Assembly (NCBI GenBank): GCA_038746285.1
Contig: JBCDKT010000003.1
Coordinates: 1 to 64,000 of the forward strand
Length of the DNA: 64,000 bases
DNA from: Bacteroidota bacterium
GTDB lineage: Bacteria > Bacteroidota > Rhodothermia > Rhodothermales > JANQRZ01
Direction of reading: 5' to 3'
Shown here in pieces: positions 24,019 through 30,553 of the stretch. Each line of letters begins with the position of its first letter. Within the stretch, counting starts at the first letter, position 1. Position numbers and translations under genes: made by a program. The notes under the pieces were generated by a model that saw only the letters and a program-made list of their open reading frames with translations, was not told the origin of the DNA and did not search any database.

Positions 24019-26376
24019 TCACCATCCGATCCGGCCGCGGCGCTCCTCGTCGCGGCGCTGCTGCTCGCGCTCGTTGTAGCGGTCCAGGAGGCGCTGCACG
24101 GCGGTGCGGTCGTCCTCCTCGACCGGCGGCGGCGGGTCGGGGCGGACGTAGCCGCTCGGCGGCTCGAAGCGGTTGCGGTCGAAGGCGGCGGCCAGCTCGG
24201 TCTCCGAGGCGTCGACGCGGCGCACGAAGTCGCCGACGACGTGGAGCGCGTTGTGCGCGCCCTGGCCCCACCACGAGGTGCGGAAGGCCACGCGGCGGTC
24301 GTTCCAGCCAACCCACGCGCCGGCTACGAGGTCAGGGTGCATCAGCATGAACCAACCGTCGGCGCTCTCCTGCGTGGTGCCGGTCTTGCCGGCGAAGTCG
24401 GCGTTGCGGAGGCCGTACTTCCAGCGGATGCGCTGCCCGGTCCCGTTTTCGACGACCTCGCGCATCATGTCGACGACGGTGTAGGCCGTGCTCGCCGAGA
24501 GCGCCTCGCGGCCCTGCGGCTCGAAGCGGGCGATGACGTTCCCCTGCCGGTCTTCGATCCGGGTGATGAGCTTGGGCTCGTGGTAGACCCCGCCGTTGGC
24601 GAGCGTCGTGTAGGCCCCGACCATCTCCAGCAGCGTCACGTCGCTCACCCCGAGGCCAATCGAGCGGACGGCCTCGACGGGGCTCTCGACGCCGAGGCGC
24701 CGGGCGTACGTGGCGACCGTCGCCGGGCCGATCTCCTGCGTCAGCCGCGCCGTCGGAATGTTTTTGCTCTGGCCGAGCGCGGTGCGGAGCGTGACGTAGT
24801 CGCCCGTCGAGCCCCCGGAGTTGCGCGGCGTCCAGGGCGCGAGCGGCGGCTGCCGCCAGACGAACGTCGAGTCCATCAGCCGGTAGTAGGGCGAGTAGCC
24901 GTTGTCGATGGCGGCGATGTAGACGAACGGCTTGAACGTCGAGCCGGGTTGCCGCTTGGCGGTCTGGACGTGGTCGAACTTGTCGGCCACGAAGTCGCGC
25001 CCGCCGACCCACGCCTTGACGTAGCCCGTGCCCGGATCGACGGCGACGAAGCCGGCTTCGAGGCGGGTCTTGTCGGTCCTGAGCGAGTCCATGAACGCCT
25101 CGTCCTGCCGGAGCTGGGCCGTCGCTGCGTCGCGCTCGACGCCCTGGCGGCGGAGGCTGCGCCAGCGGTCGGTGTCACGCACGAAGGCATCGACGAGGCG
25201 GCTCTTGCTGTCCCAGAAGTAGGCCCACGGCTCGACGTCGTTGTCCCGGAGGTAGGTCTCGTACGCGTCCTCCTGGCGCGACGAGAAGAAGCGCCGCCCA
25301 GCCCACTCGACATCGACCACGTTCTGGAGCTTCTGGGTCTGCTCGGTCACCGCCGCCTGGGCCATCGCCTGGATCCGGCTGTCGATGGACGTGTGGACGA
25401 CGAGGCCGTCGGAGTAGATGTCGTAGCCGTTCGCCTCGCCCCAGTCCTTGAGCTGCTTGCGCAGGATCTCGGCGAAGTGCGGGGCGAGGTTGTCGGTGTG
25501 GGAGTAGACGTTGAAGTCGAGCGCGATCGAGTCGGCGCGGAGTTCGTCGTAGCGGGCGCGCTCCAGCATCCCCTCGCGGACCATCGACGCCATGACGAGG
25601 TTGCGGCGCTCGGCGGCGCGCTCGGGGTAGGAGACCGGGTTGTAGCGGCTCGGGCCTTTGAGCATCCCGACGAGCGTCGCGGCCTCCTCCGTGTTGAGGT
25701 CCGAGGCGGGCTTGTTGAAGTAGGTCTGGGCAGCGGCCTCGATCCCGAAGGCGTTGTAGTTCCACGCGACGGTGTTGAGGTACATCTCCGCGATCTCGTC
25801 CTTCGTGTAGCGCCGCTCGAGCTGGACGGCGGTCAGGATCTCCTTGACCTTGCGCGTGACCGTCCGGTCGAAGCCGACCGCCTCGTAGAGGTTGCGGGCG
25901 AGTTGCATCGTGATCGTCGACGCGCCGCGCACGCCCTTGCCGGTGAGCACGCCGTAGGCGACCGCCCCCCAGCCGCGCATGTCCACGCCCCAGTGCCCGT
26001 AGAACCGGCGGTCCTCGAGCGCGACGAGCGCCCGCGTCATCTCGGGCGAGATCTCGGCCGCCGTCACCCAGGTCCGGTTCTCGCCGAGGTAGTAGCGCGC
26101 CAGTTCGGCCCCGTCGGCGGTGTAGGCCACGGTCGACTCCAGGTGCTCGGGGTTCTCGATCAGCTCGGTCGGCGGGAGCGTGAACGAGAGCGCGAAGAGG
26201 TAGAGCAGGACCGCGAGCGCCGCCCCGCCGATCCCGAGACCGATCCACTTGAGCGCGCCGAGGGAGCGCCGGTGGAGTGCGGCCGCCGCCTCGGCCTTCG
26301 CGGCTCCGCTGCGCCGGGCGTCGGGGTCCTCGAAGTAGCGGTTGAGTTCGTCGTCGGAGTACGGCTCGTCGGGCAT
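24019..26376 (-). CDS. Class A penicillin-binding protein (PBP1A type)
   Basis: Bifunctional inner-membrane enzyme that polymerises and crosslinks peptidoglycan. In the 785-residue product a cytoplasmic tail is followed by one transmembrane helix (about 42-63). The GT51 glycosyltransferase domain has catalytic Glu121 (EDRRFYGHWG) and ILTAVQLERRYTKDEI. The transpeptidase domain has Ser479 and Lys482 (STFK), Ser537-Asn539 (SKN) and Lys664 (KTGT). A Pro- and Arg-rich tail closes the protein. Length and order fit PBP1A/1B. A YkuD transpeptidase lies a few kilobases away (30738), but the two are not in one operon. Confidence 0.95.
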   Translation of the reverse strand: MPDEPYSDDELNRYFEDPDARRSGAAKAEAAAALHRRSLGALKWIGLGIGGAALAVLLYLFALSFTLPPTELIENPEHLESTVAYTADGAELARYYLGENRTWVTAAEISPEMTRALVALEDRRFYGHWGVDMRGWGAVAYGVLTGKGVRGASTITMQLARNLYEAVGFDRTVTRKVKEILTAVQLERRYTKDEIAEMYLNTVAWNYNAFGIEAAAQTYFNKPASDLNTEEAATLVGMLKGPSRYNPVSYPERAAERRNLVMASMVREGMLERARYDELRADSIALDFNVYSHTDNLAPHFAEILRKQLKDWGEANGYDIYSDGLVVHTSIDSRIQAMAQAAVTEQTQKLQNVVDVEWAGRRFFSSRQEDAYETYLRDNDVEPWAYFWDSKSRLVDAFVRDTDRWRSLRRQGVERDAATAQLRQDEAFMDSLRTDKTRLEAGFVAVDPGTGYVKAWVGGRDFVADKFDHVQTAKRQPGSTFKPFVYIAAIDNGYSPYYRLMDSTFVWRQPPLAPWTPRNSGGSTGDYVTLRTALGQSKNIPTARLTQEIGPATVATYARRLGVESPVEAVRSIGLGVSDVTLLEMVGAYTTLANGGVYHEPKLITRIEDRQGNVIARFEPQGREALSASTAYTVVDMMREVVENGTGQRIRWKYGLRNADFAGKTGTTQESADGWFMLMHPDLVAGAWVGWNDRRVAFRTSWWGQGAHNALHVVGDFVRRVDASETELAAAFDRNRFEPPSGYVRPDPPPPVEEDDRTAVQRLLDRYNEREQQRRDEERRGRIGW

Positions 26377-26432
26377 ACGGCGGTGGGGTGGGCGCTCGCT
26401 CGGGCGGAAAAACGGCGGGGGATTCTGGGTTA

Positions 26433-27218
26433 TTACACAGGCCCTGCCCGATGTTCCGTCCGGGCCAGAACTTCGGCCTCGGCTCCGGTCCAGCGCAGCA
26501 GGGCGAGGCCGCCCGCGTCCAACCGGGCGAAGGTCCGCTCGGCGAAGAAGTAGCCGGGGTTGAGGTAGGTCCCCTCGGGCCAGGCGCTCAGCTCGGCCTG
26601 GTGGGTGTGGCCGTGGACCACGAGGTCGGCGGAGGTGGTGGCGAGGTGCCGCCGGGCGGAGGCGCGGAGGTCGCGGACGAACGGGTCCTCGGGCGCACCG
26701 TCGCCGCGCAGGGCGTACCAGCGGGCGAGGCGGAAGCCCCAGTCGCCGGGCGGGAGGCTGCGGTAGAGCCAGTACGCGAGCCGGTTGCGCAGGACCGGCT
26801 TGGCGAGGTTGTAGCCCCAGTCCGAGGCCACGAGGCCGTCGCCGTGCGTGAGGTAGGCCTCGTACGGCCCGAGGCGCACCGCGAGGTCGCCGAGCACGCG
26901 CACGCCGAGCTCGGTCTCGAAGTAGTCCAAGTGCCACGGGTCGCGGTTGCCGACGAGGTAGGTCGCGGGCAGGCCGCCGTCGGTCCACGCCGCGAGCGCG
27001 CCCTGCAGCCGGACGAAGCCTTTCGGGACGAGGGTGCCGTACTCGATGAACTGGTTGAACACGTCGCCGACGAGGAACAGCCCGCCGCCGCCGCGCTCGG
27101 TGCCCTCGCGCACCGCGTCCTCGTGCGCGCCCAGCACGGCGATGGCGTCGCGCTCGGCGGCGCGGCTCTCGGCGTCGGTGCCGCGCCCGAGGTGGAGGTC
27201 CGAGAGGAAGAGGTACAC
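26433..27218 (-). CDS. LpxH-like metallophosphoesterase
   Basis: Calcineurin-like phosphoesterase, most like UDP-2,3-diacylglucosamine pyrophosphohydrolase of lipid A synthesis, which would act at the inner face of the inner membrane. Motifs in the 261-residue product: SDLHLGRGT (about 6-14), VGDVFNQF, GNRDPWH, HGDGLVASDWG and HGHTHQAE. GNRD in place of the usual GNHD is a feature of LpxH enzymes. The start codon appears to be GTG at 27218; a 16-bp tandem array ends two bases upstream. The reading frame is open through the array, but the repeat-coded residues are not plausible as protein. LpxH versus a related phosphatase is not certain. Confidence 0.75.
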   Translation of the reverse strand: MYLFLSDLHLGRGTDAESRAAERDAIAVLGAHEDAVREGTERGGGGLFLVGDVFNQFIEYGTLVPKGFVRLQGALAAWTDGGLPATYLVGNRDPWHLDYFETELGVRVLGDLAVRLGPYEAYLTHGDGLVASDWGYNLAKPVLRNRLAYWLYRSLPPGDWGFRLARWYALRGDGAPEDPFVRDLRASARRHLATTSADLVVHGHTHQAELSAWPEGTYLNPGYFFAERTFARLDAGGLALLRWTGAEAEVLARTEHRAGPV

Positions 27219-27220
27219 GA

Positions 27221-27316
27221 GCGGGGAGGAGCGGAAGCGGGGAGGAGCGGAAGCGGGGAGGAGCGGAAGCGGGGAGGAGCGGAAGCGGGGAGGAGCGGAA
27301 GCGGGGAGGAGCGGAA
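27221..27316. repeat. Six perfect tandem copies of a 16-bp unit
   Basis: Unit gcggggaggagcggaa repeats six times without a mismatch over 96 bases, directly upstream of the GTG at 27218. A partly complementary pyrimidine tract follows (27343-27372), so a long imperfect hairpin is possible. The rotated unit differs at one base from a unit found twice inside ileS (54354-54385). Confidence 0.95.
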
Positions 27317-27445
27317 GATAGGCGAGGCGGTGGAGCGCAAAATCTTCCGCTCTTCCGTTCCTGCGCTCTTCCACACCTGAGGCGCAACCTTCCCCCAGGC
27401 GGCTCGTTCGACCATGCCCCAGCCCGAGGAACCGCGCCCGACCGC

Positions 27446-28159
27446 ATGTCCCAGAACGCCTACGCCCCGCCGACGTGGTCCGTGATGCCACCGGTGATCA
27501 AGAACCTGCTGATCATCAACGGCCTCGCGTTTTTCGCCACGCTCGCGCCGCAGCTCCAGCAGCTCCTGTTCAACTGGTTCGCCCTGTGGCCGATGGGGAC
27601 GCCGGAGGTCGCGCCGGGGCGCTTCGGGGCGATGCAGGACGTGCCCCAGTTCTACCCGTGGCAGTTGGTCACGACCGCCTTCCTGCACGGTGGCTTCGGG
27701 CACATCCTGTTCAACATGTTCGGCCTCTGGATGTTTGGGATGCGGATCGAGAACACATGGGGGAGCCAGCGCTTTGCATTCTTCTACTTCTTCTGCGTCA
27801 TCGGGGCGAGCCTGACGCAGCTCGTCGTCACCTCGGCCCCGTTCCTGTTCGGCATCGGCGACCCAGTGATCGTGCCGACGGTCGGGGCCTCGGGCGGCGT
27901 CTTCGGGGTGCTCCTGGCCTTCGGGATGATGTACCCCGAGGAGCGGATCATGCTCCTCTTCCCGCCGATCCCGATGAAGGCGAAGTGGTTCGTGATCGGG
28001 CTGATGGCGCTCCAGCTCTACGCGGGCATCACCGGGACGCAGGCCGGCGTGGCGAACTTCGCCCACCTCGGCGGCGCGATCGCCGGCTTCCTCCTCATCC
28101 AGTACTGGCGTGGCAAGCTGCCCGTGGGGCCGCGCCCGCACCACTCCGCGTACCGATGA
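27446..28159 (+). CDS. Rhomboid-family intramembrane serine protease (active type)
   Basis: Polytopic inner-membrane protease that cuts substrates within or near transmembrane helices. The 237-residue product has about six helices, the HGGFGHILFNMFGLWMFG segment (two His, an Asn and the loop before helix 2), the nucleophile Ser149 in GASGGVFG and the catalytic His207 in AHLGG. These are the hallmark residues of active rhomboids. The start ATG at 27446 lies after the repeat region. A second, apparently inactive rhomboid follows 85 bases downstream on the same strand. Confidence 0.93.
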   Translation: MSQNAYAPPTWSVMPPVIKNLLIINGLAFFATLAPQLQQLLFNWFALWPMGTPEVAPGRFGAMQDVPQFYPWQLVTTAFLHGGFGHILFNMFGLWMFGMRIENTWGSQRFAFFYFFCVIGASLTQLVVTSAPFLFGIGDPVIVPTVGASGGVFGVLLAFGMMYPEERIMLLFPPIPMKAKWFVIGLMALQLYAGITGTQAGVANFAHLGGAIAGFLLIQYWRGKLPVGPRPHHSAYR

Positions 28160-28244: not shown

Positions 28245-29207
28245 ATGAACGGAGAATCTCCCCTCGACCGGTTCCGGCGGTGGTACAACATGCTGCCGCC
28301 TGCGCTACGCCTGTTGATGACGGTCAACACGGTCCTCTTTCTGGCGTGGTTCATCCTCCAGCTCGTGCAGCCGGCGGCAGAGTTCGTGGTGGACTACCTC
28401 GCGCTCAACACGGCACTGCCAACGCCGCTCTTCCGGCCCTGGCAGCTGCTGAGCTACAGCGTGCTACACCTAGACACGAGCTTCCTCGGGCTGATCACGT
28501 TCGCGTTCGACATGCTCTGGCTCTACTGGATGGGCCGCGACTACGAGGAGACCTTCGGCAGCCACCGGCTGTTCGGGCTCTACGTGCTGGCAGCGGTGGG
28601 CGGGGCGCTCCTGGCCGTCTTCGGCGGGGCCACGCTCGGCGGCAGCGCGCTGATCTACGGCTCGATGTCGGCTGTCTTCGGCGTGCTCTGCTGCGTGGCG
28701 ACGCTCTACCCGAACCGGGGCATTGGGCTGTTCCTGCTCGGCGTCGTCCCGCTGAAGTGGCTGGCGATTGGCTTCCTCGCGCTCTTGGTGCTCACGTCGC
28801 TGCGGAGTCCGGCCTACGTCCTGCTCTACCTCGGCGGGGCCGGCATCGGCTTTCTCTTTGCGAAGGCGCAGCAGAACGGGACCGACCTCGCCGCGTGGGC
28901 CCAGGTGTTCTTCCCGTCGCGCACCGAGCGCACGCCGGCTCCGTCCGGGGAGAAGTCGGGGATGTTCGGCCGCCTGGAGCAGTGGCTAGCCCGGCGCAGC
29001 AAGGACGACCCGAAGCCGGCGCGCTCCAGCGCCTCGCGGGCCTCGGACCCGCCGCGCCGCGCGAAGCGCCGCCCGCGCCCGGCCGCACCGCCGCCCGCCG
29101 GCCCGGCCGACGTGGACCGCATCCTGGACAAGATCAGCGAGCGCGGCTACGACGCGCTCACCGAGGAGGAGAAACGCATCCTCATCGAGGCGAGCGAGGG
29201 TAACTAG
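28245..29207 (+). CDS. Rhomboid-like membrane protein lacking catalytic residues, with C-terminal DUF6576-like domain
   Basis: A 320-residue polytopic membrane protein with the rhomboid helix pattern (FGLYVLAAVGGALLAVFGG) but without the dyad: the site aligned with GASG reads YGSMSAVFG, placing Met141 where the nucleophile should be, and the usual AHLGG reads LYLGG, with Tyr195 for His. The helix-2 HxxxN is also replaced. It therefore looks like a pseudoprotease. A long basic, Pro-rich linker leads to a C-terminal segment RILDKISERGYDALTEEEKR like the small domain found at the end of many Bacteroidota rhomboids. It follows an active rhomboid, so regulation of, or substrate sharing with, that copy is possible. 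Confidence 0.85.
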   Translation: MNGESPLDRFRRWYNMLPPALRLLMTVNTVLFLAWFILQLVQPAAEFVVDYLALNTALPTPLFRPWQLLSYSVLHLDTSFLGLITFAFDMLWLYWMGRDYEETFGSHRLFGLYVLAAVGGALLAVFGGATLGGSALIYGSMSAVFGVLCCVATLYPNRGIGLFLLGVVPLKWLAIGFLALLVLTSLRSPAYVLLYLGGAGIGFLFAKAQQNGTDLAAWAQVFFPSRTERTPAPSGEKSGMFGRLEQWLARRSKDDPKPARSSASRASDPPRRAKRRPRPAAPPPAGPADVDRILDKISERGYDALTEEEKRILIEASEGN

Positions 29208-29236: not shown

Positions 29237-29325
29237 GTCATCCCGAACTCGGTTCAGACCGCGCAGCAGCGGCGCAGCCTATCGCCAAGCCACGCCTTAG
29301 ATCCCGGATCAGGGTCCGGGATGAC
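29237..29325. repeat. gtcatcccg...cgggatgac inverted-repeat element
   Basis: Ends gtcatcccg (29237-29245) and cgggatgac (29317-29325) are inverted repeats. A nested hairpin has a perfect 8-bp stem, atcccgga (29301-29308) with tccgggat (29315-29322). The element is in the gap before the EEP gene and resembles intergenic palindromes known in many bacteria. Confidence 0.6.
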
Positions 29326-29458
29326 AAGGTGGAGCGACCTGTCCGTCTCAACGTGCCAGAGGACTAGGACGCGTAGGCGGGGCAGAGCGGAAGCGAGGCG
29401 CGACGAGTCCCGCGATCTTCCGATCTTCCGTCGTATTCCTCGTCCACGCCCGACTGCC

Positions 29459-30553
29459 GTGCGCCGCACCCTCTGGTTCCTGTTCGCCTTGCTCGACGGC
29501 CTGGTGCTCGGGCTGGCGGCGGCGGGGTGGGCGGCGGCCTACGTGGACCCACGGGTTTTTTGGTGGCCTGCGCCGGTAGCGGTCGGTCTGCCCCTGTTCG
29601 CACTCGCCTTGGTTGGGCTGACGGTCCTGCTGGTGGCGCAGAAGCGCTGGGGCTGGGCGGTGCTCCACGGGGCCGCGCTGGCCGTGCTGGCCGTCCGGCT
29701 CGTGCCGCTGGAGCGGCTGGAGGCCCGCGCCGCGCCCGCGCCGGGCGACCTCACGGTGATGACGCTCAACGCCCCGCGCTACGGCGACAGCGCCGAGCAG
29801 CTCACGGCCGACGTGGCAGCCCTGCTGGCCGCCGAGCAGCCGGGCCTCGTGGCGCTGCAAGAGGCCGGGGCCGAGCACGCCCGCCGCCCGCCGTACCGAC
29901 CCGTCATCGCCTCCTACGTGCAGCCTGCTGTCGACTCCCTCGGCTACCGGCTCGCGATCCCCCCGGACTGGGAAACCGAACTGCCGCTGCTTGTCCGCCT
30001 CGACGCGCCGGGCGACTTCGCCGTGCTGGAGCAGAGCCAGGAGGTGCTGGCACGGGGACCTGAGGACGAGGGGGCTTCGCGCTACGTCCGCACCCACTTC
30101 CGGTGGCAAGGGCGTGAGGGCGTCCACTACAACCTCCACCTCCGCTCGTTCGGGGCGGCGAAGCCGTGGGACGTGCGCCTGGACACGGTCGAGGCGGAGA
30201 TGTGGCTGCCGTTCCTCGAGCGCTACCGGAGGGCGTATCAGCGCCGCGCCGACGAGGTAGAGCAGGTCCTGGCGAGCGTCGAGGCCGAGACGCTGCCGGT
30301 GCTGCTCTCGGGCGACCTCAACGCGACGCCCGACAACTGGACCTACCGCCGGCTCGCCGAGGGCCGCACCGATGCCTTCCGCCTGGCCGGGTCGGGGTGG
30401 GGCGGCACCTACCGCGCCGACCGCCCGCTCGTGCGGATCGACTTCGTGCTGGCCGGTCCGGCGTGGGACGTGGTGGCCGCGCACGTCCCGGACGTGGAGT
30501 TCTCGGACCACCGCCCGGTCGTGGCGCGCCTCCGGTGGCGCGAGGCGGAGTGA
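29459..30553 (+). CDS. Membrane-anchored endonuclease/exonuclease/phosphatase (EEP) family protein
   Basis: A 364-residue protein with two or three N-terminal hydrophobic segments (to about residue 87) and a C-terminal EEP hydrolase domain outside the membrane. EEP motifs are visible: MTLNAPRYG (Asn), ALQEAG (Glu metal ligand), LLSGDLNATPD (Asp/Asn) and EFSDHRPVVARL (catalytic Asp-His). Such proteins can be phosphodiesterases of nucleic acids, lipids or nucleotides, so the substrate is open. The best start is GTG at 29459; the frame is open upstream through repeat-like sequence including a variant of the 16-bp purine unit, which is not preferred. Confidence 0.8.
   Translation: MRRTLWFLFALLDGLVLGLAAAGWAAAYVDPRVFWWPAPVAVGLPLFALALVGLTVLLVAQKRWGWAVLHGAALAVLAVRLVPLERLEARAAPAPGDLTVMTLNAPRYGDSAEQLTADVAALLAAEQPGLVALQEAGAEHARRPPYRPVIASYVQPAVDSLGYRLAIPPDWETELPLLVRLDAPGDFAVLEQSQEVLARGPEDEGASRYVRTHFRWQGREGVHYNLHLRSFGAAKPWDVRLDTVEAEMWLPFLERYRRAYQRRADEVEQVLASVEAETLPVLLSGDLNATPDNWTYRRLAEGRTDAFRLAGSGWGGTYRADRPLVRIDFVLAGPAWDVVAAHVPDVEFSDHRPVVARLRWREAE

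Follow-up and report, generated by a model that had tools for sequence, protein, structure and literature searches.

Predicted inactivity of the second rhomboid in a tandem pair

The locus raised two questions: whether the second of two neighbouring rhomboid genes still encodes a protease and, if it does not, why the gene would be kept. The genes, termed A and B (Table 1), lie in the window, by which we mean the whole 64,000-nucleotide stretch of DNA analysed. Both reading frames were intact and lay on a common strand with 85 nt between them; this spacing and shared strand make the two genes candidates for co-transcription. A scan for promoters and terminators of the pair gave none, such a scan being little informative for a GC-rich, non-E. 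coli genome.

Table 1. Features of the rhomboid pair and its flanking genes, as positions in the window.
Feature	Position	Strand	Evidence
Penicillin-binding protein (transglycosylase + transpeptidase), upstream	24022-26400	-	Match in 35/36 Rhodothermales loci
Rhomboid A (237 aa), intramembrane serine protease predicted to be active, lacking a C-terminal tail	27446..28159	+	Pfam Rhomboid 9.1e-33; Ser149, His207 and oxyanion His/Asn all present
Ser149 codon of A (GASGG)	27890..27892	+	Ser in 26/26 A proteins aligned
His207 codon of A (AHLGG)	28064..28066	+	His in 26/26 A proteins aligned
Rhomboid B (320 aa), pseudoprotease by prediction, DUF6576 tail at the C-terminus	28245..29207	+	Pfam, AlphaFold2 model, fold match
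Pfam-matched Rhomboid domain of B	28437..28862	+	PF01694 E 3.4e-9 (own-genome search)
Thr85 of B, oxyanion-hole His position	28497..28499	+	His in 46/46 intact B aligned
Asp89 of B, oxyanion-hole Asn position	28509..28511	+	Asn in 46/46 intact B
Met141 of B, catalytic Ser position	28665..28667	+	Ser in 46/46 intact B; Met in 3/3 of the window's family (f1)
Tyr195 of B, catalytic His position	28827..28829	+	His in 46/46 intact B; Tyr in 3/3 of the window's family (f1)
DUF6576 tail motif of B (D..LDKI...G...L...E...L...S), two helices predicted	29109..29195	+	PF20216 4.1e-8; model helices 287-300 and 307-319
Endonuclease/exonuclease/phosphatase family protein, downstream neighbour	29321..30553	+	PF03372 3.2e-14

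Alignment with related proteins bore out the preliminary description, which had read a Ser/His dyad in A (GASGG and AHLGG) and Met141 and Tyr195 at the same places in B. The A residues were invariant over 26 aligned proteins, and the two B residues fell in the Ser and His columns. The loss extended beyond what had been seen there, as Thr85 and Asp89 of B occupy the columns of the oxyanion His and Asn, both of which A retains. B has therefore lost the Ser of TM4, the His of TM6, and the oxyanion His and Asn of TM2, whereas A has the catalytic Ser and His. Loss of these residues predicts, without proving, that B is inactive.

B could conceivably be enzymatic through a rearranged catalytic site, as some degenerate B proteins retain His195 (for example GAWH and SAWH). 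B of the window contains only two histidines (75 and 107), neither of them in TM6, and the Ser140 and Ser142 that flank Met141 are Ala in a close relative (G002). From these observations, no alternative Ser/His dyad near the site is conserved, as judged by alignment and with the window's family included. A different Ser/His pair, an outcome that the preliminary description had allowed for, thus did not emerge, and a rearranged site appears extremely improbable.

B matched the Pfam rhomboid family (PF01694) at 35.9 bits (cut-off 22.6, E = 1e-08), which places it in the rhomboid superfamily, and DUF6576 (PF20216) at 32.7 bits (cut-off 27.3, E = 8.2e-08), the single PF20216 match in its own genome. 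The rhombosortase model (TIGR03902) was not matched at its curated cut-off of 84, A scoring 36 and B being absent from the matches listed. An AlphaFold2 model of B (pLDDT 88.3, pTM 0.71) matched GlpG with Z = 19.6 (2.5 Å over 170 residues), iRhom1 with Z = 16.8 (3.6 Å over 182 residues) and Derlin-1 with Z = 15.1 (5.0 Å over 210 residues). The rhomboid helix pattern and the DUF6576-like tail, both claimed from the first inspection, are thus kept in B, and with the dyad and oxyanion residues missing its designation as a predicted pseudoprotease stands. Six TM helices, as modelled, would place the tail on the cytosolic side. A search for a solved relative of the tail gave a best PDB profile match at E = 0.062, which was rejected as chance.

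Searched at the protein level, the window's genome yielded A and B only. A family search added two further rhomboids (G000:C36, L247; G000:C31, L248), both with an intact catalytic set, and the proposal that A is the sole other rhomboid of the genome was dropped.

Around the pair, a PF03372 neighbour was found at 9 of 36 Rhodothermales loci and at 10 of 44 other named loci. About 130 bp ahead of rhomboid A lies a perfect 16-bp tandem repeat (6.1 copies, 27220-27317), within the start region of a minus-strand metallophosphoesterase-like ORF (26433-27491); its unit has no other occurrence within the window.

Distribution of degenerate B proteins

A first search of relatives gave a match in 59 of 60. 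The order-wide search covered 114 Rhodothermales genomes, with 95 matched; three of these held A only (G025, G034, G041), leaving 92 B genes, all of which were read. Degenerate B proteins numbered 20 of the 92 and fell in six families (f1, 3/3; f12, 9/9; f4, 3/3; f10, 1/1; f9, 1/3; f15, 3/6). The remaining 72 kept every catalytic residue covered by sequence, B being cut before the His by a contig end in three genomes (G007, G017, G082) and split by a frame change in another (G087). All A copies read, in the order and in the phylum loci, were catalytically intact. Ten f15 genomes had no B match, and further A-only loci occurred among relatives.

The Ser was replaced in 19 of the 20 degenerate proteins, with Trp in 12, Met in 4 and His in 3, and in none with a small residue. 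Included in the 20 is the B of G065, in which Ser and His are kept and the oxyanion residues alone are missing. The chance of Trp, Met or His replacing Ser was put at 0.046 per event from BLOSUM62, or 0.354 for any big side chain, figures that were calculated post hoc with approximate background frequencies and serve as a rough guide, not as a test. A residue of this kind at the old Ser position would probably fill the pocket.

Close relatives (G001, G002) carried Met and Tyr at the two positions with the B frame still open, which speaks against chance. The nearest named relative, a Rhodothermales metagenome bin, was 87% identical in B. Loci titled Rubricoccaceae or Rubrivirga had degenerate B types matching family f12. 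Outside Rhodothermales, 40 of the 41 named loci had an intact B. A phylum survey matched 112 of 118 genomes, and of the 60 loci read (35 paired, 25 single) B was intact in all 35 that were paired, a set that may overlap with the 41 named loci. The pair is therefore spread across the phylum, and the possibility raised at the outset, that the pairing is unique to one genome, did not hold. As most B proteins elsewhere are intact, inactivity would seem to be a derived and repeated change. The isolated case outside Rhodothermales was Mucilaginibacter conchicola (L138:4971-5795), in whose B neither the catalytic nor the oxyanion His remains (P,N,S,Q).

Number of independent losses

The number of changes was estimated on an 83-row tree built from A proteins, on which the state of B required at least five changes. 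This figure, a minimum by parsimony for the one tree obtained, counts loss and regain alike. A single clade of all 19 degenerate rows was rejected (p-AU = 0.000543). Families f1 and f12 formed one supported group (99/99), which suggests that the window's loss is common to all members found of both families. Joining f4 to this group was allowed by the AU test (p = 0.301), so f4 may share its origin with them. A tree of B proteins with the catalytic columns masked gave six changes, Mucilaginibacter counted in; G011, which is without A in the A tree, is present in the B tree only. Four rows had been removed before the counts: a duplicate of the window (L002), two other paralogues (L061, L063) and a frame fragment (L099|5587).

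Conservation of the scaffold and tail

To define what had stayed constant, 58 columns conserved at 90% or more in 46 intact B proteins were taken as the reference. The 12 members of f1 and f12 kept many of these at 100%, for example Arg22, Trp66, Gly82, Trp95, Gly97, Glu101, Gly139, Pro156, Gly166 and Gly202. Values at the catalytic site were 0/12 for Ser, 0/12 for the oxyanion His and 1/12 for the oxyanion Asn (0-8%), with the catalytic His at 50%. All 19 degenerate rows retained nine tail columns (Asp291, Leu294, Lys296, Ile297, Gly301, Leu305, Glu309, Leu313 and Ser317), and at a tenth, Asp295, each had D or E; this alignment omits the short B rows G007, G017, G066 and G069, of which the degenerate G066 ends before the tail. 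The constant feature of B is the tail, and the catalytic site is not. It is quite probable that the tail carries the main conserved function of the protein.

New residues had also become fixed. Trp141 and Asn75 were invariant in the nine f12 proteins, with position 195 variable, and Leu17, Lys171 and Ala174 occurred in 12 of 12 f1 and f12 members vs no more than 1 of the 46 intact B proteins.

Examples from f4, f10 and f12 matched DUF6576 above cut-off, and the Rhomboid profile was unmatched in f4 and just under cut-off in f10 and f12. The f4 model matched GlpG with Z = 16.8 (2.9 Å over 168), a match that is not fully independent, as the model was built from an alignment with other B rows. For the f4 protein L048:2339-3232, which the Pfam Rhomboid profile misses and whose model fits GlpG, annotation would overlook the rhomboid.

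Selection on degenerate B genes

Such losses could also mean that B is decaying, being redundant with A after duplication, with the catalytic residues going first and the gene next. Several lineages are without B; its absence in some genera indicates that it is dispensable over time. The Rhomboid profile is no longer detected in f4, and some degenerate proteins sit on long branches of the B tree (G011, 2.32; G065, 1.95; f4 stem, 2.86), which fits partial relaxation.

Substitution rates pointed the other way. NG86 dN/dS of degenerate B ranged from 0.06 to 0.44 over eight pairs, every value being below 1, although four whole-gene dS were saturated (-1) and dS is perhaps underestimated in the wider pairs. 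The window and G001 gave 0.076/0.656 = 0.12, a pair within f12 (G059, G071) 0.114/1.886, and a pair within f4 (G019, G029) 0.046/0.611. Higher B values sat at wider distances, where those for A were also raised. The ratio of dN in B to that in A was 1.1 to 2.4 in degenerate pairs vs 1.4 to 4.3 in eight intact pairs, arguing for no general acceleration of degenerate B. Tail and scaffold residues are kept, no internal stop was seen in the degenerate B matches listed, and the degenerate state, with its fixed new residues, is present in all 12 members of two families. Against this evidence, progressive decay of B is very unlikely.

These data suggest that the degenerate B genes tested are under purifying selection and mostly not decaying. 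That B is both inactive and kept by selection is, on the sequence evidence, very highly probable.

History of the gene pair

Each of the 25 single-rhomboid loci in the phylum survey (L174, L183 and 23 others) encoded a protein that combined an intact dyad with a DUF6576-like tail. A quick unrooted tree clustered these single-chain rhomboids with A and set B apart (SH-aLRT 99). Since some genomes of the phylum hold one active rhomboid with a DUF6576 tail, a likely history is that a tailed active ancestor was duplicated, that A lost the tail and B kept it, and that B then lost catalysis several times. More tentatively, duplication may have created a two-part system, with catalysis assigned to A and a docking tail to B, which then became a pseudoprotease about five separate times, in almost every case with a bulky residue at the Ser position.

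Function of B

The reading that we prefer, with a probability of about 0.5, is that B is a rhomboid pseudoprotease kept by selection for the cytosolic tail that its membrane scaffold carries, with A probably taking part. In the membrane B would form a scaffold of six helices, and its cytosolic tail would dock a conserved cytosolic partner or client. It would work with the neighbouring protease A, by which any cutting required would be done, and its contacts would more likely run through the tail and the outer face of the protein than through a client gripped in the former catalytic cleft.

Derlins handle clients in ERAD, and YqgP does so for FtsH. By analogy, B might be an inactive client binder that holds TM substrates and passes them on, either to A or to a different protease, of which FtsH is an example. 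In favour are the fold matches of the B model to iRhom1 and Derlin-1 and the finding that the adaptor role of YqgP survives mutation of its catalytic Ser (PMC7231995). In the same study, however, the adaptor needed an unobstructed active site, whereas 19 of the 20 degenerate B proteins have exchanged the Ser for Trp, Met or His. With its pocket probably filled, B would probably not hold clients through a free active site, and action by the tail or outer surface is the more likely. B also lacks the large N-terminal cytosolic domain of YqgP, as its TM1 begins at residue 19 in the model. Client binding of this kind is accordingly rated as somewhat unlikely.

A further possibility is that B tunes or restrains A, either as a heteromer with it or by competing for substrate, so that cleavage is limited. 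The two genes are close and on the same strand in all two-gene loci of the locus survey, A is always intact, and a Drosophila iRhom inhibits rhomboid-dependent signalling (PMC3149277). In most relatives, however, B is intact and so no pure dead competitor, and genera that lack B still have an unchanged A. Such restraint seems unlikely.

The preferred reading, a tail held on a scaffold, includes A only as a probable companion. Proximity is what links A and B as partners. They lie about 55 kb apart in G040, where B is intact, and the two further intact rhomboids in the own genome mean that A is not the sole possible partner. That B is a physical or functional partner of A has, in our estimate, nearly an even chance; that it presents substrates to A or restrains them is a plausible candidate role.

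The constrained parts of B, the DUF6576 tail in particular, would thus indicate a non-proteolytic function, and the bulky residue at the Ser position is open to mutational test. The pair offers a starting point for finding out what DUF6576 does and which role paired rhomboids have across Bacteroidota.

Comparison with known systems

B shares with the GlpG-type rhomboid proteases (PF01694) the six-helix fold, the W-x-G-R motif and other structural residues, and differs from them in having neither Ser nor His nor either oxyanion residue. The single-chain rhomboid of the Ignavibacteriota type is like B in tail and family; unlike the B arrangement, it joins catalysis and tail in one intact gene.

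Rhomboid pseudoproteases are well studied in eukaryotes. The metazoan iRhoms have, like B, a rhomboid fold without the dyad, a likeness of behaviour only. Their hallmarks are the large iRhom homology domain that follows TM1 and precedes TM2, and a role in trafficking or regulating an ADAM17-like client. The model of B leaves about 41 residues from the end of helix 19-38 to the start of helix 80-104, where no such domain was found. B further differs in being bacterial, of separate origin and short at the N-terminus, with no large luminal domain and with a DUF6576 tail. Derlins, inactive rhomboid-fold proteins that act in retrotranslocation, resemble the model of B in fold and differ in the tail. 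TimRhom I and II of Trypanosoma are dyad-less rhomboid-like parts of a membrane machine (PMC5187411); they belong to a mitochondrial translocase and are not known to have an active partner beside them. YqgP of Bacillus subtilis, likewise a bacterial rhomboid, is documented as an adaptor apart from its proteolytic activity. It is an active enzyme that needs an open active site for the adaptor role (PMC7231995), whereas B has no dyad and a pocket that is probably filled.

No description of bacterial dyad-less rhomboid pseudoproteases or of the A/B tandem was found in the openly licensed literature searched, nor was a paper on DUF6576. Rhomboid pseudoproteases and a bacterial adaptor rhomboid are thus known; new, as far as that literature shows, would be a tandem in which the tailed copy has repeatedly turned pseudoprotease. 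The change from protease to pseudoprotease is seen several times in one bacterial order, with gene neighbour, scaffold and tail kept. As these losses stand beside intact relatives, the route from intramembrane protease to pseudoprotease becomes testable. Within Rhodothermales, Rhodothermus marinus has been reported as genetically modified (PMC5822342). If the preferred reading is true, the pair would be a natural, repeated bacterial counterpart of iRhom and Derlin evolution, with the relatives that have an intact B as matched controls.
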